Shown here in pieces: positions 12,490-45,816 of a stretch of 64,000 bases of DNA. Position 1 is the first letter of the stretch. Every line of letters starts with the position of its first letter. Source of the DNA: Manis javanica. Taxonomy: Eukaryota; Chordata; Mammalia; Pholidota; Manidae. Position numbers and translations under genes: made by a program. The DNA is taken from contig NC_133161.1 in the NCBI RefSeq assembly GCF_040802235.1, forward strand, positions 105,479,001 to 105,543,000, given 5' to 3'. The notes under the pieces are model-generated. The model did not search any database. It saw only the letters and a list, made by a program, of their open reading frames with translations, and was not told the origin of the DNA.

Positions 12490-13465
12490 GATAAATAAAA
12501 CAGACACTTCTCCAAAGAAGAAATTCAGATGGCCAACAGGCACATGAAAAGATGCTCCACATCACTAATCATCAGAGAAATGCAAATTAAAACCACAATG
12601 AGATATCGCCTCACACCAGTTAGGATGGCCAACATCCAAAAGAGAAACCACAAATGCTGACAAGGATGTGGAAAAAGGGGAACCCTCCTACACTGCTGGT
12701 GGGAATGTAAACTAGTTCAACCATTGTGGAAAGCAGTATGGAGGTTCCTCAAAACAAAATAGAAAAACCATTTGACCCAGAAATTCCACTCCTAGGATTT
12801 ACCCTAAGAATGCAGGAGCCCAGTTTGAAAAAGAAATATGCACCCCTATGTTTATTGCAGCACTATTTACAATAGCCAAGAAATGGAAGCAACCTAAATG
12901 TCTATCAGTAGATGAATGAATAAAGAAGATGTGGTACATATATACACAATGGAATATTATTCAGCCATAAGAGGAAAACAAACCCTACCATTTGCAACAA
13001 CATGGATGGAGCTAGAGGGTATTATGCTCAGTGAAATAAGTGAGGCGGAGAAAGACAAGTATCAAATGATTTCACTCATATGTGGAATATAAAAACAAAG
13101 AAAAACTGAAGGAACAGCAGCAGAATCACAGAATCCAAGAATGGACTAACAGTTACCAAAGGGAAAGGTACTGCAGAGGATGGGTAGGAAGGGAGGGAGA
13201 AGAGAGAAAAAGGGGCATTACGATTAGTACACATAATGTAGTTGGGGGGGGGACACGGGAAAGGTAGTATATACAGAGAAGACAAGTATTGATTCTATGG
13301 CATCTTACTATGCTGATGGACAGTGACTGTAATGGGGTATATGGGGGGGGAGACTTGACAATAGGGGGAGTCTAGTAACCATAATGTTGTTCAAGTAATT
13401 GTACATTAATGATATCAAAACAAAAAAATTAAAAATTAAAATTAAGTTAAATTTTAAAAAACTAG
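12490..13465 (+). mobile_element. 5'-truncated LINE-1, 3' end only
   Basis: It begins inside the last part of ORF2 (the 'agatggccaacaggcacatg' block at 12527-12546), runs through the cysteine-rich end of ORF2 (12650-12720) and the ORF2 C-terminus near 13070, then a G-rich 3'UTR and an A-rich tail at about 13412-13463. The reading frame is broken by a frameshift and stops (a 'tga' replaces Trp or Cys codons at 12657 and 12917). Only about 40 bp separate its tail from the target site of the young full-length L1. No clear target-site duplication was found. Confidence 0.85.
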
Positions 13466-13503: not shown

Positions 13504-13518
13504 AAAAGTGACTGGGTG
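13504..13518. repeat. Left target-site duplication of the young L1
   Basis: The 15-bp sequence aaaagtgactgggtg occurs here and again exactly at 22251-22265 directly after the terminal poly(A). The bottom-strand nick site reads TTTT/AT, close to the L1 endonuclease preference. The pair defines one insertion that carries both the L1 and the non-L1 cargo behind it. Confidence 0.93.
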
Positions 13519-15151
13519 GAGGGGCGGAGCCAAGATGGCGGCGTGAGTAGAGCAGTGGAAATCTCCTCCCAAAAACACATAGAGCTATGAAAATATAACA
13601 AAGAAAAATCTTCCTAAAATAGAGACCACAGGACACAGGACAACATCCAGACCACATCCACACCTGCAAGAACCCAGCGCCTTGTGAAGGGGGTAAGATA
13701 CAAGCCCCAGCCCGGCGGGACCCGAGCGCCCCTCCCCCTGGCTCCCGGCGGGTGGAGAGAAACCGGAGCGGTTTTTTTTTTTTTTTTTTTGGCGAGCGCT
13801 TTTTGGAAGCCTTAGAGGGACGGGCCCCCGTTGCTGGGGAGGCAGGGTGGCGGGACCGGTGAGGAGGTGCCTGGGAACGGCGCCGGAGGACAAAGAATAT
13901 CCCGCGTTTCTCCCTGCGAGACCTGGGGGCGGGTGCCTGAGACCGGAGCCTGAGGACGGAGGAGGTCGCGCGTTTTTCCCCTTTTTTTTTTTTCTCTTTT
14001 TGGTGAGCGCTTTTTGGAAGCCTTGAAGGGACGGGGACCCCAGTGCTAGGGAGGCACGGTGGCGGGACTGGTGAGCGGGTGGCTGGGACCGGCGCCTGAG
14101 GACAAAGAATATCCCCCGTTTTTCCCTGCGGGACCGGTGGGCGGGTGCCTGAGACCGGCACTTGAGGACAGAGGAAATCGCGCGTTTTTCCCCTTTTTTT
14201 TTTCTCTTTTCTGCGAGTGCTTTTTGGAAGCCTAAAAGGGACAGGGACCCCGGTGCTAGGGAGGCAGGGCGGCGGGACTGGTGAGCGGGTGCCTGGGACC
14301 GGCACCTGAGGACAAAGAATATCCCGCATTTTTCCCTGTGGGACCGGTGGGTGGGTGCCTGAGACCAGCACCTGAGGACGGAAGAAATCGCGCGTTTTTT
14401 CCCTTTTTTTTCTCTCTTTTTGCCGAGTGCTTTTTGGAAGCCTTGAAGGGACAGGGAACCCGGTGCTAGGGAGGCAGGGCGGCGGGACTGGTGAGCGGGT
14501 GCGTGGGACCAGTGCCTGAGGACAAAGAATATTGAGCGTTCCTTCCCTGCGGGACCGGTGGGTGGGTGCTTTTTGGAAGCCTTGAAAGGACAGGGACCCT
14601 GGTGCTAGGGAGACAGGGCAGCAGGACCAGTGAGCGGGTGCCTGGGACCGACACCTGAGGACAAAAAAAAAAAAAAAAAAAAATCGCTTGTTTTTTCCTT
14701 TTTTTTCCTTTTTTTTTTCTCTTTGTTTCTGTTCCCTCTCTCATTGTTGCTGCTGTTGTTTTGGTTTGGAGAGTGCTTTTTGGAAATCTTAAAGGGGCAG
14801 GACAGGTCACTTAGACCAGAAGCAGGGAATCTGGGGATCTCTGGGCACTCTAACCCCCTGGGCAGCAGGGAGCACAGAGGCCCCTTACGGAGATAAATAG
14901 TCTCCTGGCTGCTCCCCCTCCAACGGGGCTCCACCATTTTGGAGGAACAGCCCCAGCCAGGCCAAGCCCACAGCAACAGCGGAGATAAACCCCAAAGCAA
15001 CTGGGCAGGAAGCAGAAGCCCTGTCTGCGCACAGCTGCCCAGCACAAGCTACTAGAGGTCGCTATTCTCCCAGGAAAAGGCTACAAACCAACAAGAAGGG
15101 AAGCTCTTCCAGCGGTCACTTGTACCAGCTCTGCAAACTATCTCTATCACC
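13519..15151 (+). promoter_or_regulatory. L1 5'UTR / internal promoter
   Basis: This GC-rich, CpG-rich leader starts with a gggcggagccaagatggcgg block at about 13522-13541 that includes a YY1-type site (caagatggc, 13531-13539), the usual start-site element of L1 promoters. Next comes a unique segment to about 13790, a monomer array to about 14790, and a unique segment up to the ORF1 ATG. Poly(T) (13772-13790) and poly(A) (about 14665-14683) runs interrupt it. Transcription from it is inferred by analogy with other L1s. Confidence 0.8.
13790..14790 (+). repeat. Array of about 210-bp monomers in the L1 5'UTR
   Basis: The landmark 'ctttttggaag' starts at 13799, 14010, 14220, 14430 and 14579, with a variant at 14776. 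Spacings are 211, 210, 210, 149 and 197 bp, so there are three near-identical full units plus a deleted and a diverged one. Each unit also holds an internal half repeat about 66 bp apart (for example 'gtgagcgggtgcctg' at 14281 and its variant at 14347). The layout parallels the monomer promoters of rodent L1s, but the sequence is not one I recognise from them. Confidence 0.9.
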
Positions 15152-16042
15152 ATGAAAAGGCAAAACTACAGGCAGACAAAGATCACAGAGACAACACCTG
15201 AGAAGGAGACAGACCTAACTAGTCTTCCTGAAAAAGAATTCAAAATAAAAATCATGAACATGCTGACAGAGATGCAGAAAAAAATGCAAGAGCAATGGGA
15301 TGAGATGCAGAGAAAAATGCAAGAGCAGTGGGATGAAGTCCGGAAGGAGATCACAGATGTCAGGAAAGAGATCACAGAAGTGAAACAATCCCTGGAAGGA
15401 TTTATAAGCAGAATGGATAAGATGCAAGAGGCCATTGAAGGAATAGAAGCCAGAGAACAGGAACGTATAGAAGCTGACATAGAGAGAGATAAAAGGATCT
15501 CCAGGAATGAAACAACACTAAGAGAAATATGTGACCAATACAAAAGGAAAAACATTCGTATTATAGGGATACCAGAAGAGGAAGAAAGAGGAAAAGGGAT
15601 AGAAAGTGTCTTTGAAGAAATAATTGCTGAAAACTTCCCCAAACTGGGGGAGGAAATAATCGAACAGACCATGGAATTATACAGAACCCCCAACAGAAAG
15701 GATCCAAGGAGGACAACACCAAGACACATAATAATTAAAATGGCAAGGATCAAGGACAAGGAAAGAGTTTTAAAGGCAGCTAGAGAGAAAAAGGTCACCT
15801 ATAAAGGAAAACCAATCAGGCTAACATCAGACTTCTCAACAGAAACCCTACAGGCCAGAAGAGAATGGCATGATATACTTAATGCAATGAAACAGAAGGG
15901 CCTTGAACCAAGGATACTGTATCCAGCACGACTATCATTTAAATATGATGGTGGGATCAAACAATTCCCAGACAAGCAAAAGCTGAGGGAATTTGCTTCC
16001 CACAAACCACCTCTACAGGGCATCCTACAGGGACTGCTCTAG
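15152..16042 (+). CDS. L1 ORF1 protein (RNA-binding nucleic-acid chaperone), intact
   Basis: 296 codons, ATG to TAG, no break. L1 ORF1p trimerises through an N-terminal coiled coil and coats L1 RNA in cytoplasmic ribonucleoprotein particles. Here residues about 30-125 are coiled-coil-like, about 132-215 form the RRM region (starting near 'NIRIIGIPEEEE', 134-145), and about 216-290 the C-terminal domain (with 'YKGKPIRLTSDFS', 217-229). The coiled coil contains back-to-back duplications: residues 41-51 repeat as 52-62, and 63-69 repeat as 70-76. At 296 aa it is shorter than the human protein (338 aa). The start follows a 'caccatga' context. It belongs to the L1 bounded by the 13504 and 22251 duplications. 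Confidence 0.93.
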   Translation: MKRQNYRQTKITETTPEKETDLTSLPEKEFKIKIMNMLTEMQKKMQEQWDEMQRKMQEQWDEVRKEITDVRKEITEVKQSLEGFISRMDKMQEAIEGIEAREQERIEADIERDKRISRNETTLREICDQYKRKNIRIIGIPEEEERGKGIESVFEEIIAENFPKLGEEIIEQTMELYRTPNRKDPRRTTPRHIIIKMARIKDKERVLKAAREKKVTYKGKPIRLTSDFSTETLQARREWHDILNAMKQKGLEPRILYPARLSFKYDGGIKQFPDKQKLREFASHKPPLQGILQGLL

Positions 16043-16237
16043 ATGGGAGCACCCCTAAAAAGAGCACAGAACAAAACACACAACATATGAAGAATGGAGG
16101 AGGAGGAATAAGAAGGGAGAGAAGAAAAGACTCTCCAGACAGTGTATATAACAGCTCAATAAGCGAGCTAAGTTAGGCAGTAAGATACTAAAGAAGCTAA
16201 CCTTGAACCTTTGGTAACCACGAATCTAAAGCCTGCA
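16043..16237 (+). other. L1 inter-ORF spacer
   Basis: A 195-bp purine-rich spacer between the ORF1 stop and the first ORF2 ATG. The ORF2 frame is already open from about 16211 without an ATG. ORF2 of L1 is translated by an unconventional reinitiation mechanism in other mammals. No promoter-like sequence is obvious here. Confidence 0.6.
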
Positions 16238-19200
16238 ATGGCAATAAGTACATATCTTTCAATAGTCACCCTAAATGTAAATGGACTTAATGCACCAATC
16301 AAAAGACATAGAGTAATAGAATGGATAAAAAAGCAAGACCCATCTATATGCTGCTTACAAGAAACTCACCTTAAACCCAAAGATAAGCATAGACTAAAAG
16401 TCAAGGGATGGAAAAACATATTTCAGGCAAACAACAGTGAGAAGAAAGCAGGGGTTGCAGTACTAATATCAGACAAAATAGACTTCAAAACAAAGAAAGT
16501 AACAAGAGATAAAGAAGGCCACTACATAATGATAAAGGGCTTAGTCCAACAAGAGGATATAACCATTCTAAATATATATGCACCCAATACAGGAGCACCA
16601 GCATATGTGAAGCAAATACTAACAGAACTAAAGAGGGAAATAGACTGCAATGCATTCATTGTAGGAGACTTCAACACACCACTCACCCCAAAGGATAGAT
16701 CCACCGGGCAGAAAATAAGTAAAGACACACAGGCACTGAACAACACACTAGAACAGATGGACCTAATAGACATCTATAGAACTTTACATCCAAAAGCAAC
16801 AGGATATACATTCTTCTCAAGTGCACATGGAACATTCTCCAGAATAGACCACATACTAGCTCACAAAAAGAGCCTCAGTAAATTCCACAATATTGAAATT
16901 CTACCAACCAATTTTTCAGACCACAAAGGTATGAAAGTAGAAATAAATTCTACAAAGAAAACAAAAAGGCTCACAAACACATGGAGGCTTAACAACATGC
17001 TACTAAATAATCAATGGATCAATGAACAAATCAAAATAGAGATCAAGGAATATATAGAAACAAATGACAACAACAACACTAAGCCCCAACTTCTGTGGGA
17101 TGCAGCGAAAGCAGTCTTAAGAGGAAAGTATATAGCAATCCAGGCACACTTGAAGAAGGAAGAACAATCCCAAATGAATAGTCTAACATCACAACTATTA
17201 AAACTGGAAAAAGAAGAACAAATGAGGCCTAAAGTCAGCAGAAGGAGGGACATAATAAAGATCAGAGAAGAAATAAACAAAATTGAGAAGAATAAAACAA
17301 TAGCAAAAATCAACGAAACCAAGAGCTGGTTCTTTGAGAAAATAAACAAAATAGATAAGCCTCTAGCCCAACTTATTAAGAGAAAAAGAGAGTCAACACA
17401 AATCAACATAATCAGAAATGAGAATGGAAAAATCACGACAGACTCCACAGAAATACAAAGAATTATTAAAGACTACTATGAAAACCTATATGCCAACAAG
17501 CTGGAAAACCTAGAAGAAATGGACAACTTCCTAGAAAAATACAACCTCCCAAGACTGACCAAGGAAGAAACACAAAAGTTAAACAAACCAATTACAAGCA
17601 AAGAAATTGAAACAGTAATCAAAAAACTACCCAAGAACAAAACCCCGGGGCCGGACGGATTTACCTCGGAATTTTATCAGACACACAGAGAAGACATAAT
17701 ACCCATTCTCCTTAAAGTGTTCCACAAAATAGAAGAAGAGGGAATACTCCCAAACTCATTCTATGAAGCCAACATCACCCTAATACCAAAACCAGGAAAA
17801 GACCCCACCAAAAAAGAAAATTACAGACCAATATCCCTGATGAATGTAGATGCAAAAATACTCAATAAAATATTAGCAAACAGAATTCAACAGTATATCA
17901 AAAGGATCATACACCATGACCAAGTGGGGTTCATCCCAGGGATGCAAGGATGGTACAACATTCGAAAATCCATCAACATCATCCACCACATCAACAAAAA
18001 GAAAGACAAAAACCACATGATCATCTCCATAGATGCTGAAAAAGCATTTGACAAAATTCAACATCCATTCATGATAAAAACTCTCAGCAAAATGGGAATA
18101 GAGGGCAAGTACCTCAACATAATAAAGGCCATATATGATAAACCCACAGCCAGCATTATACTGAACAGCGAGAAGCTGAAAGCATTTCCACTGAGATCGG
18201 GAACCAGACAGGGATGCCCACTCTCCCCACTGTTATTTAACATAGTACTGGAGGTCCTAGCCACGGCAATCAGACAAAACAAAGAAATACAAGGAATCCA
18301 GATTGGTAAAGAAGAAGTTAAACTGTCACTATTTGCAGATGATATGATACTGTACATAAAAAACCCTAAAGACTCCACTCCAAAACTACTAGAACTGATA
18401 TCGGAATACAGCAAAGTTGCAGGATACAAAATCAACACACAGAAATCTGTAGCTTTCCTATACACTAACAACGAATCAATAGAAAGAGAAATCAGGAAAA
18501 CAATTCCATTCACCATTGCATCAAAAAGAATAAAATACCTAGGAATAAACCTAACCAAGGAAGTGAAAGACTTATACTCTGAAAACTACAAGTCACTCTT
18601 AAGAGAAATTAAAGGGGACACTAATAAATGGAAACTCATCCCATGCTCATGGCTAGGAAGAATTAATATCGTCAAAATGGCCATCCTGCCGAAAACAATA
18701 TACAAATTTGATGCAATCCCTCTCAAATTACCAGCAACATTCTTCAATGAATTGGAACAAATAATTCAAAAATTCATATGGAAACACCAAAGACCCCGAA
18801 TAGCCAAAGCAATCCTGAAAAAGAAGAATAAAGTAGGGGGGATCTCACTCCCCAACTTCAAGCTCTACTACAAAGCCATAGTAATCAAGACAATTTGGTA
18901 CTGGCACAAGAACAGAGCCACAGACCAGTGGAACAGATTAGAGACCCCAGAAATTAACCCAAACATATATGGTCAATTAATATTTGATAAAGGAGCCATG
19001 GACATACAATGGCAAAATGACAGTCTCTTCAACAGATGGTGCTGGCAAAACTGGACAGCTACATGTAGGAGAATGAAACTGGACCATTGTCTAACCCCAT
19101 ATACAAAGGTAAACTCAAAATGGATCAAAGACCTGAATGTAAGTCACGAAACCATTAAACTCTTGGAAAAAAACATAGGCAAAAACCTCTTAGATATAAA

Positions 19201-20053
19201 CATGAGTGATCTCTTCTTGAACATATCTCCCCGGGCAAGGAAAACAACAGCAAAAATGAGCAAGTGGGACTACATTAAGCTGAAAAGCTTCTGTACAGCG
19301 AAGGACACCATCAATAGAACAGAAAGGAACCCTACAGTATGGGAGAATATATTTGAAAATGACAGATCTGATAAAGGCTTGACGTCCAGAATATATAAAG
19401 AGCTCACACGCCTCAACAAACAAAAAACAAATAACCCAATTAAAAAATGGGCAGAGGAACTGAACAGACAGTTCTCCAAAAAAGAAATACAGATGGCCAA
19501 GAGACACATGAAAAGATGCTCCACATCGCTAATTATCAGAGAAATGCAAATTAAAACTACAATGAGGTATCACCTCACACCAGTAAGGATAGCTGCCATC
19601 CAAAAGACAAACAACAACAAATGTTGGCGAGGCTGTGGAGAAAGGGGAACCCTCCTACACTGCTGGTGGGAATGTAAATTAGTTCAACCATTGTGGAAAG
19701 CAGTATGGAGGTGCATCAAAATGCTCAGAACAGACCTACCATTTGACCCAGGAATTCCACTCCTAGGAATTTACCCTAAGAACGCAGCAATCAAGTTTGA
19801 GAAAGACAGATGCACTCCTATGTTTATCGCAGCACTATTTACAATAGCCAAGAATTGGAAGCAACCTAAATGTCCATCTGTAGATGAATGGATAAAGAAG
19901 ATGTGGTACATATACACAATGGAATACTACTCAGCCATAAGAAGTGGAAAAATCCAACCATTTGCAGCAACATGGATGGAGCTGGACAGTATTATGCTCA
20001 GTGAAATAAGCCAAGCGGAGAAAGAGAAATACCAAATGATTTCACTCATCTGA
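16238..20053 (+). CDS. L1 ORF2 protein (endonuclease and reverse transcriptase), intact
   Basis: 1271 codons from the first ATG (16238). The frame is open 27 bp further upstream but lacks an earlier ATG. ORF2p nicks target DNA and primes reverse transcription of L1 RNA at the nick. Visible motifs: the apurinic-endonuclease-type domain with 'LNVNGLN' (about 12-18), catalytic Glu in 'QETH' (Glu42), 'GDFN' with Asp144 and Asn146, and 'SDH' (227-229). The RT domain has 'NYRPISLMN', 'SIDAEKAFD' and the active-site 'FADD' (699-702). A C-terminal cysteine/histidine cluster starts with 'CWRGC' (about 1129-1133). All key residues and the usual length are kept, so the enzyme is predicted to be functional, although this is not tested. 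Confidence 0.95.
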
Positions 20054-20435
20054 GGAGTATAGGAACAAAGGAAAAACTGAAGGAACAAAACAGCAGCAGA
20101 ATTACAGAACCCAAAAATGGACTAACAGGTACCAAAGGGAAAGGAACTGGGGAGGATGGGTGGGCAGGGAGGGATAAGGGGGGGGAAGAAGAAGGGGGGT
20201 ATTAAGATTAGCATGCATGGGGGGGAGGGAGAAAGGGGAGGGTGGGCTGCACAACACAGAGAGGACAAGTAGTGACTCTACCACATTTTGCTAAGCTGAT
20301 GGACAGTAACCGTAATGTGGTTGTTAGGGGGGACCTGATATAGGGGAGAGCATAGTAAACATAGTATTCTTCAGGTAAGTGTAGATTAAAAATTTAAAAA
20401 AAAAAAAAGAAAGAAAGAAAGAAAAGGGGGATTAC
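20054..20435 (+). other. L1 3'UTR and internal A-rich tail
   Basis: The 3'UTR shares its text with the other L1s in the window ('aacagcagcagaat' and 'atggactaaca' blocks). It carries a G-rich polypurine stretch at 20161-20247 with several runs of four or more G's, a known L1 3'UTR property that can form G-quadruplexes. The L1 body stops at about 20390, followed by A-rich sequence and (GAAA)n to about 20435. This internal tail is not followed by a target-site duplication, unlike the second poly(A) at 22228-22250. Confidence 0.8.
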
Positions 20436-20854
20436 TCCTTAACAGGATAAAACTATTGGTAAATCAAAGGTCAACGCATGCTTTAAATATCCTTAATGTT
20501 GATCACTTAAAGGGTGTCAGATGATCAGCTATGGAGGTACTCTTTTCTGATAATATTCCTTTCTCTTAATTAAAAAAAAAAAAAAAGCAGTTACTGTGTG
20601 CTGACCTCCAATGAGTTCTGCACAGTGGTATAGAGGGCATGTCATAGTGTGGGCAAAGGGTCTGTTTGTTTCTACGCAGAAGATCAAGGCCTAGCTTGGA
20701 TACCCAGAAAATGAACTAAGATACGATATGAGGAGGAGCTTCCGGCATCAGCACTCTCTGGAGGACTCGTGCCGGGGGATGATCATCAAAAAGCCTCCAC
20801 AGGGATCCGGACGATGCTGCGGTTGTGGCTGCATCCAGCCCACCGTCTCCTGGA

Positions 20855-21266
20855 CTTGCCATAAGAAGGAGGAGGGAGATGTCTAGGCTGGCAAGTGCAT
20901 ACAGTGAGACAACGAATCTGACTGGATCTGTACTGTTGGAACTCAACCAGGAGTTGGGAGGGGTGCAAGTTGTAGCACCCCAAAATTTCATGACTATAGA
21001 CTATCTATGGTTAAAAGAACATATGGGATGTGAACAGATCCCAGAAATGGGCTGCTTTAATTTGTCTTATGGTTCAAGTACAGTTGGACAATATCCATCA
21101 TATCATAGATAAATTTTCACAAATGCCTAGGGTGCCTAAATGGTTTTCTTGGCTTCACTGGAGATGGCTGGTAATTATAGATTTGCTTTGTTTATGTCAC
21201 CGTATTCCTATTATGTTAATATGTGTGTGCAAATTAGTTAGTAGTTTAAAACCTATACATACTTAA
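20855..21266 (+). pseudogene. Endogenous retroviral env (transmembrane subunit) remnant, broken
   Basis: A frame to 21112 holds a Leu/Gln/Glu-rich heptad-like stretch and, near 21028-21059, a cysteine cluster that resembles the loop after the immunosuppressive-domain region of retroviral transmembrane subunits. A hydrophobic stretch with several Cys residues (about 21165-21230), plausibly the membrane anchor, is in a different frame that ends at 21266. The frame change, the missing surface subunit and the lack of gag and pol mean it cannot make a working envelope. The retroviral class is uncertain. Confidence 0.5.
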
Positions 21267-21903
21267 GGTACTATACAAGAAGATATGTCAAAGAAATAAT
21301 CAATCCTCCCAAGTTTCCTTCATATGCTACATCTATAGCTTTTCTTCTTCCTTCCTAATTACAAACCTTAAATAGAATTCGTGCCTCATATCGAATTTAC
21401 CGAGTATCATAATTCCTCCAGGTGGTAAAGATACCTCGAGACAAGTGCTGGGCATAGAAGCCACAGGGCATAAATCTGCAAAGAAGTAAAAAGCTAACCT
21501 TTGCAAACAATATGGCTTCTCTCTCACTTACCAACTTTACATTTCCCTGTATGGCCCCGGAAGATGACTGGTTAGCCAGAGACGGGTAAGATTCCTCAAG
21601 GGAGGAACAACCTAAGACAGGCACAGTCGCAGGGGGGCCATCAGGTGAGAATTTGGGGATCAACAGAGGTGAGGCTCAGAACCTCACCCCCCCTGCTTTG
21701 AGAGAAATCTTCTGCATCCGTGGATGTCTTGCTGCCCTTGTCTAGCCTGGATTAATACTTAGTCCATAGGCACACACCTGATCATCTGATCATCTATATT
21801 TGCCTTCTTACAGCACTAAACTATGTTTTCTACCTTTATCTTGCATCTACCTACCACTTCAGCATTTTATTAAAAAGAAAAATAATAATAATAATAGGAG
21901 AAA

Positions 21904-22227
21904 TGTGGGATCAACATATAAATCAAGTACAAAAATCAAATGAATATTCATATTTGACCTGATGGTTTATAGGTCATATTGCATGATCAAAACCGAAAGT
22001 TTCTGTGATGAATGCCCTTGTACTGTTCACCATGTAAGAATTTATTCACTCTGTAAGAATTCGTTCACCATGTAAGAACTTGTTCGTTATGCTTCAGAAG
22101 ATTGGAGACTGACGAGAATTAGGCTTGAGATGGATTAATGATTGTACATTGAGCATTGACCCCCCCTATACTGAATTTTATTGTTGTTAACAACCATTTG
22201 ATCAATAAATATGAGAGATGCCCTCTC
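21904..22227 (+). mobile_element. ERV LTR, U3-R only, ending at its poly(A) site
   Basis: It starts with TGTGGGATCAAC right after an A/G-rich stretch, as expected at a polypurine tract-LTR junction. A tandem motif of the form (c)accatgtaagaa recurs three times at about 22029-22078. An AATAAA lies at 22204-22209 and poly(A) starts 18 bp after it. No U5 follows, so this copy came from a polyadenylated RNA, not from an integrated provirus. The family is not named here. Confidence 0.65.
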
Positions 22228-22250
22228 AAAAAAAAAAAAAAAAAAAAAAA

Positions 22251-22265
22251 AAAAGTGACTGGGTG
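22251..22265. repeat. Right target-site duplication of the young L1
   Basis: A perfect copy of the 15-bp sequence at 13504-13518. The four leading A's overlap the poly(A) tail, so the unambiguous match is 11 bp (gtgactgggtg). Confidence 0.93.
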
Positions 22266-41360: not shown

Positions 41361-41657
41361 ATGGAAGTGTTCCTAGGGGTGGATAGCTGTCACCAGAGGT
41401 AGGAAAATTATGGTAGGGAGGGTGGAGCAGCTGATTGCAAGGCAAATGCAAAATTAAATTGACTATCCCCAAAGCCAATCAAGGGATAGACAAAAAGTAT
41501 AGAATCTGATACCTAATATATAAAGAATGAAGGAGGAGAAACAGAAAAGAACCTTTAGATTATGTTTGTAACAGCATACTAAGTGAGTTAAGTTAGACTC
41601 TTAGATAGTTAGGAAAGTAACCTGGAACCTTTGGTAACCACGAATCTAAACCCTGAA

Positions 41658-44600
41658 ATGGCAATAAGTACATACCTATTGATAATCACCCTAAATGTAA
41701 ATGGACTGAATGCACCAATCAAAAGACATAGAGTCACTGAATGGATAAAAAAACAAGACCCATCTATATGCTGCTTACAAGAGACTCACCTCATACCCAA
41801 AGACATGTACAGACTAAAAGCCAAGGGATGGAAAAAAGATATTTCATGCAAACAATAGGGAGAAGAAAGCAGGGGTTGCAGTACTAGTATCAGACAAAAT
41901 AGACTTCAAAACAAAGAAAGTAACAAGAGATAAAGAAGGACATTACATAATGATAAAAGGCTCAGTCCAACAAGAGGATATAACCATTCTAAATATAATG
42001 CACCCAACACAGGAGCACCAGCATATGTGAAACAAAGAATTAAAGGAGGAAATAGAATGCAATGCATTCATTTTGGGAGACTCAACACACCATTCACTCC
42101 AAAGGACAGATCCACCAGACAGAAAATAAGTCAGGACACAGAGGCACTGAACAAAACACTAGAACAGATGGACCTAATAGACATCTATAGAGCTCTACAT
42201 CCAAAAGCAACAGGATACACATTCTTCTCAAGTGCACATAGAACATTCTCCAGAATAGACCACATACTAGGCCACAAAAAGAGCCTCAGTAAATTCCAAA
42301 AGATTGAAATCCTACCAACCAACTTTTCAGACCACAAAGGTATAAAACTAGAAATAAATAGTACCAAAAAAGCAAAAAGGCTTACAAACACATAGAGGCT
42401 TAACAACATGCTCTAAATAATCAATGGGTCAATGACCAAATTAAAATGGAGAGCCAGCAATATATGGAAACAAATGACAACAACAACACTAAGCCCCAAC
42501 TTCTGTGGGACGCAGCAAAAGCAGTCTTAGGAGGAAAGTATATAGCAATCCAGGCACACTTAAAGAAGGAAGAACAATCCCAAATGAATAGTCTAATGTC
42601 ACAATTATTGAAATTGGAAAAAGAAAAACAAATGAGGCCTAAGGTCAGGAGATGGAGAGACATAATAAAGATCAGAGAAGAAATAAATAAAATTGAGAAG
42701 AATAAAACAATATAAAAAATTCAATGAAACCAAGAGCTGGTTCTTTGAGAAAATAAACAAAATAGATAAGCCTTTAGCCAGACTTATTAAGAGAAAAAGA
42801 GAGTCAACACACATCAACAGAATCAGAAATGAGAAAGGAAACATCACAACAGACCCAACAGAAATACAAAGAATTATTAGAGACTACTATGAAAACCTAT
42901 ATGCTAAGAAGCTGGAAAACCTAGAAGAAATGGACAACTTCCTAGAAAAATACAACCTTCTAAGACTCACCAAGGAAGAAACACAAAATCTAAACAAACC
43001 AATTACCAGAAAAGAAATTGAAGCAGTAATCAAAAAACTACCCAAGAAAAAAAACCTCTGGGCCAGATGGATTTACCTCGGAATTTTATCAGACATACAG
43101 AGAAGATATAATACCCATTTTCCTTAAAGTTTTCCAAAAAATAGAAGAGGAGGGAATACTCCCAAACTCACTCTATGAAGCCAACATCACCCTAATACCA
43201 AAACCAGGCAAAGATCCCAGCAAAAACGAAAACTACAGACCAATATCCCTGATGAATGTAGATGCAAAAATACTCAATAAAATATTAGCAAACCAAATTC
43301 AAAAATATATCAAAAGGATCATACATCATGACCAAGTGGGATTCATCCCAGGGATGCAAGGATGGTACAACATTCGAAAATCCATCAACTTCATCCACCA
43401 CATCAACAAAAAGAAAGACAAAAACCACATGATCATTCCATAGATGCTGAAAAAGCATTCAACAAAATTCAACATCTATTCATGATAAAAACTCTCAGCA
43501 AAATGGGTATAGAAGGCAAGTTCCACAACATAATAAAGGCCATATACGATAAAACCACAGCCAACATCATACTGAACAGCGAGAAGCTGAAAGCTTTTCC
43601 TCTGAGATCGGGAACAAGACAGGAAGACCCACTCTCCCCACTAACATAGTACTGGAGGTTCTAGCCACGGCAATCAGACAAAACAAAGAAATACAAGGAA
43701 TCCAGATTGGTAAAGAAGTTAAACTGTCACTATTTGCTGATGACATGATATTGTACATAAAAAACCCTAAAGACTCCACTCCAAAACTACTAGAACTGAT
43801 ATCGGAATACAGCAAAATTGCAGGATACAAAATTAACACACAGAAATCTGTGGCTTTCCTATACACTAACAATGAGCCAATAGAAAGAGATATCAGGAAA
43901 ACAATTCCATTCACAATAGCATCAAAAAGAATAAAATACCTAGGAATAAACCTAACCAAAGAAGTGAAAGACTTATACCCTCAAAACTACAAGACACTCT
44001 TAAGAGAAGTTAAAGTGGACACTAACAAATGGAAACTCATCCCATGCTCTTGGCTAGGAAGAATTAATATTGTCAAAATGGCCATCCTGTCCAAAGCAAT
44101 ATACAGATTTGATGCAATCCCTATCAAATTACCAACAACATTCTTCAACGAACTGGAACAAATAGTTCAAAAATTCATATGGAAACACCAAAGACCCAGA
44201 ATAGCCAAAAGCAATCCTGAGAAAGAAGAATAAAGTGGCAGGGATCTCACTCACTCCCCAACTTCAAGCTCTACTACAAAGCCATAGTAATCAAGACAAT
44301 TTGGTACTGGCACAAGAACAGAGCCACAGACCAGTGGAACAGATTAGAGACTTCAGACATTAACCCAAACATATGCGGTCAATTAATATTCGATAAAGGA
44401 GCCATGGACATACAATGGGAAAATGACAGTCTCTTCAACAGATGGTGCTGGCAGAACTGGACAGCTCATGTAAGAGAATGAAACTGGATCACTGTCTAAC
44501 CCCATACACAAAAGTAAATTCAAAATGGATCAAAGACCTGAATGTAAGTCATGAAACCGTAAAACTCTTAGAAAAAAACATAGGCAAAACTCTCTTGGAT

Positions 44601-45436
44601 GTGAACATTAGCGACTTCTTCATGAGTATATCTCCCTGGGCAAGGAAAACAAAAGCAAAAATGAACAAGTGGGACTATATCAAGCTGAAAAGCTTCTGTA
44701 CAGCAAAGGACACCATCAATAGAACAAAAAGGTACCCTAGAGTATGGGAGAATATATTCATAAATGACAGATCTGATAAAGGCTTGACATCCAAAATATA
44801 TAAAGAGCTCACACACCTCAAAAAACAAAAAGCAAATAATCCAATTAAAAAATGGGCAGAGGAGCTGAACAGACAGTTCTCCAAAGAAGAAATTCAGATG
44901 GCCAACAGACACATAAAAAGATGCTCCACATCGCTAGTTATCAGAGAAATGCAAATTAAAACCACAAAGAGATATCACCTCACACCAGTAAGGATGGCCA
45001 CCATCCAAAAGACAGTAACAAATGTTGGCGAGGTTGTGGAGAAAGGGGAACCCTCCTACACTGCTGATGGGAATGTAAATTAGTTCAACCATTGTGGAAA
45101 GCAATATGGAGGTTCCTCAAAATGCTCAAGATAGACATACCATTTGACCCAGGAATTCCACTTCTAGGAATTTACCCTAAGGATGCAGCATTCCAGTTTG
45201 AAAAAGACAGATGCACCCCTACGTTTATCGCTGCACTATTTACAATAGCCAAGATATGGATGCAACCTAAGTGTCCATCAGTAGATGAATGGATAAAGAA
45301 AATGTGGTACATACACACAATGGAATATTATTCAGCCATAAGAAGAAAACAAATCCTATCATTTGCAACAACATGGATGGAGCTAGAGGGTATTATGTTC
45401 AGTGAAATAAGCCAAGCGGAGAAAGACAAATACTAA
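41658..45436 (+). pseudogene. L1 ORF2 remnant, multiple frameshifts
   Basis: From the ATG at 41658 the frame breaks near 41855, 42000, 42080, 42395, 42712, 43060, 43438, 43640, 44215, 44467 and 45050. Recognisable parts are the endonuclease SDH block (about 42327-42335), '[10 protein letters not shown]' (about 43336-43365), FADD-equivalent text (about 43733-43744) and the C-terminus near 45436. It is non-functional. The largest open pieces are 213 codons (44442-45083) and 162 codons (43745-44233). Confidence 0.9.
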
Positions 45437-45802
45437 ATGATTTCACTCATCTGTGGAGTATAAGAACAAAAGGAAAACTGAAGGAACAAAACAGCAGCAG
45501 AATCACAGAACCCAAGAATGGACTAACAGTTACCAAAGGGAAAGAGACTGGGGAGAATGGGAGGGTAAGGAGGGATAAGGGTGGGGAAGAAGAAAGGGAG
45601 TATTATGATTAGCATGTATAATGTTGAGGGTTGGGGAAAGGGGAGGGCTTTGCAATACAGAGAAGACAAGTAGTGATTCTACAGCGTCTTGCTATGCTGA
45701 TGGACAGTGACTATAATGGGGTTTGTGGGGGGGACTTGGGGTAGGGGAGAGCCTAGTAAACATAATGTTCTTCAAAAAAATATAAATAAATAAATTTAAA
45801 AG

Positions 45803-45816
45803 AAAATGGGATCTCA
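45803..45816. repeat. Right target-site duplication of the second full-length L1
   Basis: Exact copy of 39863-39876. Confidence 0.9.

Follow-up and report, generated by a model that had tools for sequence, protein, structure and literature searches.

A young L1 in the pangolin Manis javanica that probably belongs to a lineage carrying a retroviral 3′ end

One insertion in the Manis javanica genome joins an intact LINE-1 (L1) to about 1.8 kb of endogenous retrovirus (ERV) sequence and is, with a probability of roughly 0.85, a young member of an L1 lineage that has a retroviral 3′ end and is copied as a whole genome-wide. The insertion lies in the 64,000-nucleotide stretch of DNA analysed here (the window), where the whole unit, L1 plus retroviral segment, is enclosed by one perfect 15-bp target-site duplication (TSD) that starts with AAAA. 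That an L1 transcript reading through into an ERV founded the lineage is less sure than the lineage itself; the retroviral end would supply termination and perhaps RNA handling. The parts of the unit are as follows.

13504–13518, + strand: left TSD, AAAAGTGACTGGGTG, an exact match to 22251–22265
13519–15151, + strand: L1 5′ UTR of the full-length type, with the start motif GAGGGGCGGAGCCAAGATGG at 13519
13757–14598, + strand: about four tandem units of ~210 bp each in the L1 5′ UTR, from a repeat search
15152–16042, + strand: L1 ORF1, 296 aa, open (PF02994, E 2.5e-25; PF17490, E 3.2e-20)
16238–20053, + strand: L1 ORF2, about 1271 aa, open (endonuclease PF03372, E 3.3e-24; reverse transcriptase PF00078, E 5.8e-47)
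20054–20395, + strand: L1 3′ UTR, with ATTAAA at 20385 and no AATAAA
20396–20425, + strand: fossil L1 tail A13(GAAA)n plus the join AAAAGGGGGATTAC, common to family copies
20426–20720, + strand: C-terminal part of a retroviral integrase, broken, including an internal A15, from matches to integrase pieces of other ERVs in the same genome
20695–20886, + strand: short open frame, a candidate env leader with no Pfam match
20783–21112, + strand: open frame of 109 aa, env transmembrane (TM)-like, from matches to the ASLV Env TM chains 4jpr and 5h9c
21446–21651, + strand: most conserved 200-site stretch, between env and LTR, from a fixed-difference scan
21906–22227, + strand: LTR U3 and R, starting TGTGGG after a purine-rich stretch, with AATAAA at 22204–22209; borders drawn by eye
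22228–22254, + strand: terminal A27 tail, directly after the segment end
22251–22265, + strand: right TSD, AAAAGTGACTGGGTG, its AAAA shared with the tail end

The borders bear out the original prediction that L1 and ERV segment entered the site as one insertion, with a duplication at 13504–13518 and again from 22251 and none after the L1's own tail. The two copies match exactly, and the 11-base core of the duplication, taken without the A's, has no further occurrence on either strand of the window; therefore no duplication follows the L1's own tail either. The left flank contains ATAAAAGTG, which fits the nick motif of the L1 endonuclease. The L1 had been called intact, and both of its reading frames are indeed open: Pfam recognizes the ORF1 RNA-binding domains and the ORF2 endonuclease and reverse transcriptase domains that mark a LINE-1, and a 333-aa endonuclease piece of ORF2 matches a protein named for Manis javanica at 100% identity. 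The other mark of a LINE-1, a poly(A) tail with an A-starting TSD (~7–20 bp), is seen in the window copy, in the truncated copy L004 and in 7 of 10 further copies. The 3′ end in use is that of the LTR, as proposed: the segment stops at 22227, 18 bp past AATAAA, and the A27 run follows. Its proposed start at 20436 needs a small correction, the retroviral part beginning nearer 20422–20426 (AAAAGGGGGATTAC). From 20054 to 22227 a single AATAAA is present in the window copy, at 22204, along with ATTAAA at 20385, 20569 and 21869; the internal A15 (20572–20586) lies within integrase-derived sequence and is no L1 tail.

Two older L1s in the window, at 12499–13428 (82%) and 41535–45806 (90% identity to the L1), end without a retroviral tail. 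Mouse L1 elements have monomer promoters. The tandem units in the 5′ UTR recall these promoters of mouse L1, which the accessible part of one source describes (PMC9022269).

Elements with the same end are scattered over the genome. A pattern for the LTR end (R end), allowed at most one mismatch, finds 19,771 places (9,900 + 9,871) and its reversed control finds 0 + 0; the figure counts LTR ends, the join itself being seen in sampled copies. Searching with the segment gives 40 of 40 scored matches, the best of 2288 first-look candidates, at full length and 99–100% identity (one further row is a fragment of 29 bases). Thirty best matches, the window's own locus included, were fetched: all 30 contain the segment. 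In 29 it is preceded by the L1 3′ end with the (GAAA)n-AAAAGGGGGATTAC join, two of them with one join base changed; the thirtieth, L004, breaks off inside the tail and is flanked by a separate 16-bp TSD. Where 5′ ends were fetched, for 10 copies, the L1 match begins within the first 10 bases in all 10; the 5′ UTR is the same as in the window L1 in eight (97.8–99.7%), has a deletion in L040 and is different in L033. Perfect, A-starting TSDs of 13–19 bp surround L1 plus segment in 7 of these 10 further copies, as in the window, and in the other three no TSD was found, the longest match being 6 bp. The reading of the 10 as single elements is based on distance, 5′ match and TSDs, with the L1 middle lying outside the sequence read, and the reading frames were followed from end to end for the window copy alone. 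In L003, L009, L014, L016, L027, L029 and L030 the terminal tails are broken by short non-A stretches and followed by a second A run, possibly through renewed read-through or tail variation.

A second sample approaches the family from its LTR ends. It comprises 34 copies drawn, non-randomly, from listed places with a base other than A after the R end, on contigs 1–3 only; an A-rich tail still follows in 17 of 18 such ends. Twenty-three of the 34 reach the L1, 20 of them with the join (in some with point changes in it) and three with a deletion that spans the join; another 10 break off within the segment, and one (L053) was read at the LTR end only. The sibling copies with the same L1–cargo join that the original prediction called for are thus present in both samples. 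Truncation at the 5′ end is common among L1 copies. Among the 30 best matches and the 34 LTR-end copies none that reaches the join is free of L1, and an ERV-only retroposon was rejected on that ground; a segment standing alone at many sites, the result that had been named as contrary to a single insertion, is absent from the samples, where copies carry the L1 unless truncated on the 5′ side. Four 9-kb stretches at fixed genome positions contain one 5′-truncated copy (L089, 93.4%), in keeping with ~20,000 LTR ends. Five L1 3′ ends were found independently of the segment, in a comparison of few copies that leaves out L041: the segment is attached to the closest of them (96% identity) and missing from the other four (74.6–84.7%).

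The copies differ widely in age. Identity to the window element is 80–99.4% in the first 18 LTR-end copies; L1-reaching copies diverge from the window copy by as much as 13.4% (substitutions only, segment from 20590), old copies are about 5% different from their nearest fellows, and the 30 best matches, a sample biased to the youngest, show a mean difference of 0.26%. L070 stands outside the distance tables, since it has no overlap with L042 and was left unjoined. Divergence of the L1 3′ UTR and of the segment go together over 30 copies (Pearson 0.96, Spearman 0.85). Because the copies span the range from near-identical to ~13% diverged, the join is read as one old event inherited by the L1 lineage. 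The mammalian substitution rate is about 2.2e-9 per site and year; at this rate the old and young copies would have split, on a rough estimate, ~20–30 million years ago.

Inheritance has not been strictly linear. L005 is a mosaic, in which the L1 part is about 5% off up to ~20263 and one mismatch follows beyond; tails are therefore exchangeable, and strict descent as a single unit is not universal. Both L005 and L033 combine a distinct L1 body (~5% off, with a different 5′ UTR) with a young retroviral tail, the break lying near 20263. In L061 and L064 (also L060) the stretch around the join is lost (window about 20389–20573 or more), which perhaps marks a sub-lineage or slippage between two A-rich tracts.

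Most likely, an env-deleted ERV received an ancestral L1 in its integrase region, in sense orientation, at AAAAGGGG, a sequence typical of L1 endonuclease targets. The transcript of this L1 would have passed the weak L1 signal and stopped at the AATAAA of the LTR, and its polyadenylated product, L1-integrase-env-U3-R, would have founded the lineage. Later copies would call for no special step, only ordinary target-primed reverse transcription of an L1 RNA with a retroviral 3′ UTR. The parent provirus or founder locus, which would have ERV sequence before the L1 and U5 beyond R, was not found: none of 5 sampled from the best 150 integrase places is close. These places, which match the integrase DNA-binding domain, are the best 150 of 2335 candidates scored; many share one score and many have a 144-aa open frame, and the group may possibly be a high-copy young retroviral family.

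A nearly identical product would come from template switching, in which the reverse transcriptase first copies an ERV mRNA, 5′-truncated in the integrase, and then jumps to an L1 RNA at its poly(A) end. Switching by LINE reverse transcriptases is described in the accessible parts of two sources (PMC13174262; PMC6500023), but as the origin of the founder it seems unlikely: the (GAAA)n of the internal tail is also found in old copies and suits an aged genomic tail, and the start of the ERV side, AAAAGGGG, looks like a target of the L1 endonuclease, though neither point is decisive. The original prediction, a 3′ transduction from a source L1 upstream of an ERV, agrees with read-through as a single old founder event; what has to be given up is an event at one source locus, since young and old copies share the join. 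A single recent transduction from one L1 beside an ERV would explain the one TSD around L1 and segment and the end of the segment at the LTR poly(A) site, but with the same join in 29 of the 30 best matches and in old copies ~10–13% diverged it is very improbable. That an ERV retrocopy landed later in the poly(A) tail of the L1, as a nested insertion, is hardly credible at all: both joints do lie in A-rich sequence, which is able to hide a nested duplication, but the whole unit sits in one TSD at 7 of the 10 further sites and the join recurs. The old common join and the TSDs thus lead to the rejection of both.

An L1 lineage founded by read-through shares with known L1 3′ transduction families a transcript that continues beyond its own signal and takes along what lies downstream, and descendants that have the carried sequence in common; as in those families, several copies here have the same 3′ flank beyond the L1 tail. 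By contrast, the carried sequence is retroviral, 1.8 kb long and lineage-fixed, with ~20,000 LTR ends and sampled copies from 0 to ~13% diverged.

The carried segment is a fragment of an ERV. A provirus would have two LTRs with U5, whereas here U3-R is the only LTR part and the end is the poly(A) site; there is no second copy of the segment within the 64-kb window and no shared U5 downstream of R in 18 sampled LTR ends. When pieces between stops were compared with the genome's other ERVs, a small comparison, the C-terminal integrase piece alone matched from the window copy (E 6e-4), and both the integrase start and the C-terminal pieces matched from older family copies (E 3e-5 to 4e-4); the short integrase pieces have no Pfam match, and searches of solved structures (PDB) with three of them gave nothing meaningful. 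The TM-like frame, which has no Pfam match, resembles the avian sarcoma/leukosis virus Env TM (4jpr, E 4.6e-5; 5h9c, E 4.9e-5), and 25 of 33 candidates from the protein database match it at E ≤ 0.001. The env surface subunit is absent between the leader-like frame and TM; P0124, a 107-aa database relative, has, judged by eye, the same leader–TM arrangement without a surface subunit. A search for the full ERV with PF03708 (avian-type surface glycoprotein) gave 0 matches, but with its controls likewise silent it is uninformative. In IMG/VR two window patterns had no match and the TM piece had one weak match, 53% over 27 residues. Rfam assigns no family to the window at gathering scores and gives two matches on the segment (E 2.8 and 3.7, far under the cut-offs), and the tRNA scan is empty.

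Rates of change along the segment were compared in 15 old and 10 young of 37 aligned copies, CpG sites excluded, by counting fixed differences (master-lineage changes) and singletons (copy decay); the 10 young copies include 8 of the 29 fetched best matches other than the window. Left out of the 37 were the mosaic L005, the intermediate copies L066, L068, L071, L079 and L084, L085 with an internal deletion, and the truncated copies L075–L078 and L080. Singletons per non-CpG copy-site amount to 1.5–1.7% across most of the segment and 2.07% in the 5′ integrase piece, and outside the segment to 2.42% in the L1 3′ UTR and 3.44% at the ORF2 end. Fixed differences stand at 12.3% for the integrase/env-leader part, at 7.4% for both TM and the 5′ integrase piece, at 3.4–3.6% for the env–LTR interval and at 3.9–5.1% for U3-R; in the L1 3′ UTR they are 8.0% and at the ORF2 end 2.1%. 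A scan that needs no borders finds, in the 200 sites at 21446–21651, a single fixed difference (p 0.0016 from 5000 permutations) and, at 20669–20886, an excess of 30 (0 of 5000); singletons at 21446–21651 number 47 against 48.2 expected, and the scan has no singleton trough (p 0.64). Compared with the 3′ part of the segment, the ORF2 end changes more slowly (p 0.0015).

The slow stretch between env and LTR hints at a functional signal, on the evidence of substitution patterns. An explanation without constraint, which traces the slowness to swapped tail modules or to the 5′ part having changed in a burst, is compatible with the lineage reading and has close to an even chance. L005 shows that tails are exchanged, the excess at 20669–20886 is significant, and, measured against the L1 3′ UTR, it is the 5′ part that is faster (p 0.025) and not the 3′ part that is significantly slower (p 0.31). 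Against it, singletons are about even along the segment and fixed differences are not (63:158 in the 5′ part vs 33:206 in the 3′ part, Fisher p 1.4e-4, with borders chosen after the data were seen), and the border-free scan points the same way. Retention of the tail for its usefulness is a more doubtful proposal, made by analogy: the LTR would provide a strong poly(A) signal and ~21446–21651 a putative RNA transport element for the L1 RNA, which is long and without introns; the lineage would then have an advantage over L1s lacking the tail, and the tail would be a swappable module, as in L005. The support for a transport element is its position, between env and LTR, which is also that of the MPMV transport element. 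The SERV-K/MER11 retroviral RNA transport element likewise lies between env and 3′ LTR, according to the accessible part of PMC11379458, and its likeness to the conserved stretch is one of position alone: the predicted RNA fold of 21440–21740 is unremarkable, with a z-score of -1.09 and 14 of 100 shuffles folding equally well.

Among described elements a close parallel is SVA, whose SINE-R part is an ERV 3′ end (env + 3′ LTR) serving as the element's own 3′ end (PMC12593883, in the part accessible) and which is mobilised by L1 (PMC7353768, likewise in part). As far as these sources describe it, SVA consists of hexamer, Alu-like and VNTR parts with a HERV-K10-derived end; the pangolin element has a SINE-R-type end from ERV env + LTR too, but from another kind of ERV, with an alpharetrovirus-like TM, and where SVA has its hexamer, Alu-like and VNTR parts and lacks coding capacity, it has an L1 body whose ORF1 and ORF2 are open. 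Chimeras of L1 and other RNAs, reported in the accessible part of PMC13174262 as 5′ additions in the human genome, similarly unite L1 and foreign RNA in one insertion; the pangolin case is a 3′ addition turned lineage. Successive L1 subfamilies are known to swap 5′ UTRs (same source and part). In the open literature, with repeat databases, preprints and subscription papers outside the scope of the search, no earlier account was found, in pangolins or elsewhere, of an L1 lineage whose 3′ end derives from an ERV; a repeat model for this pangolin L1 tail may already exist.

The pangolin element would represent a coding L1 lineage that kept a retroviral 3′ end while it expanded over a long time, a parallel to the SINE-R end of SVA with a different ERV as its source and a coding element as its carrier. 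The lineage spreads LTR sequence, with its putative promoter role, to very many sites of the pangolin genome, and it makes testable the idea that a borrowed retroviral terminator or RNA-handling element may drive the success of a non-LTR retrotransposon.
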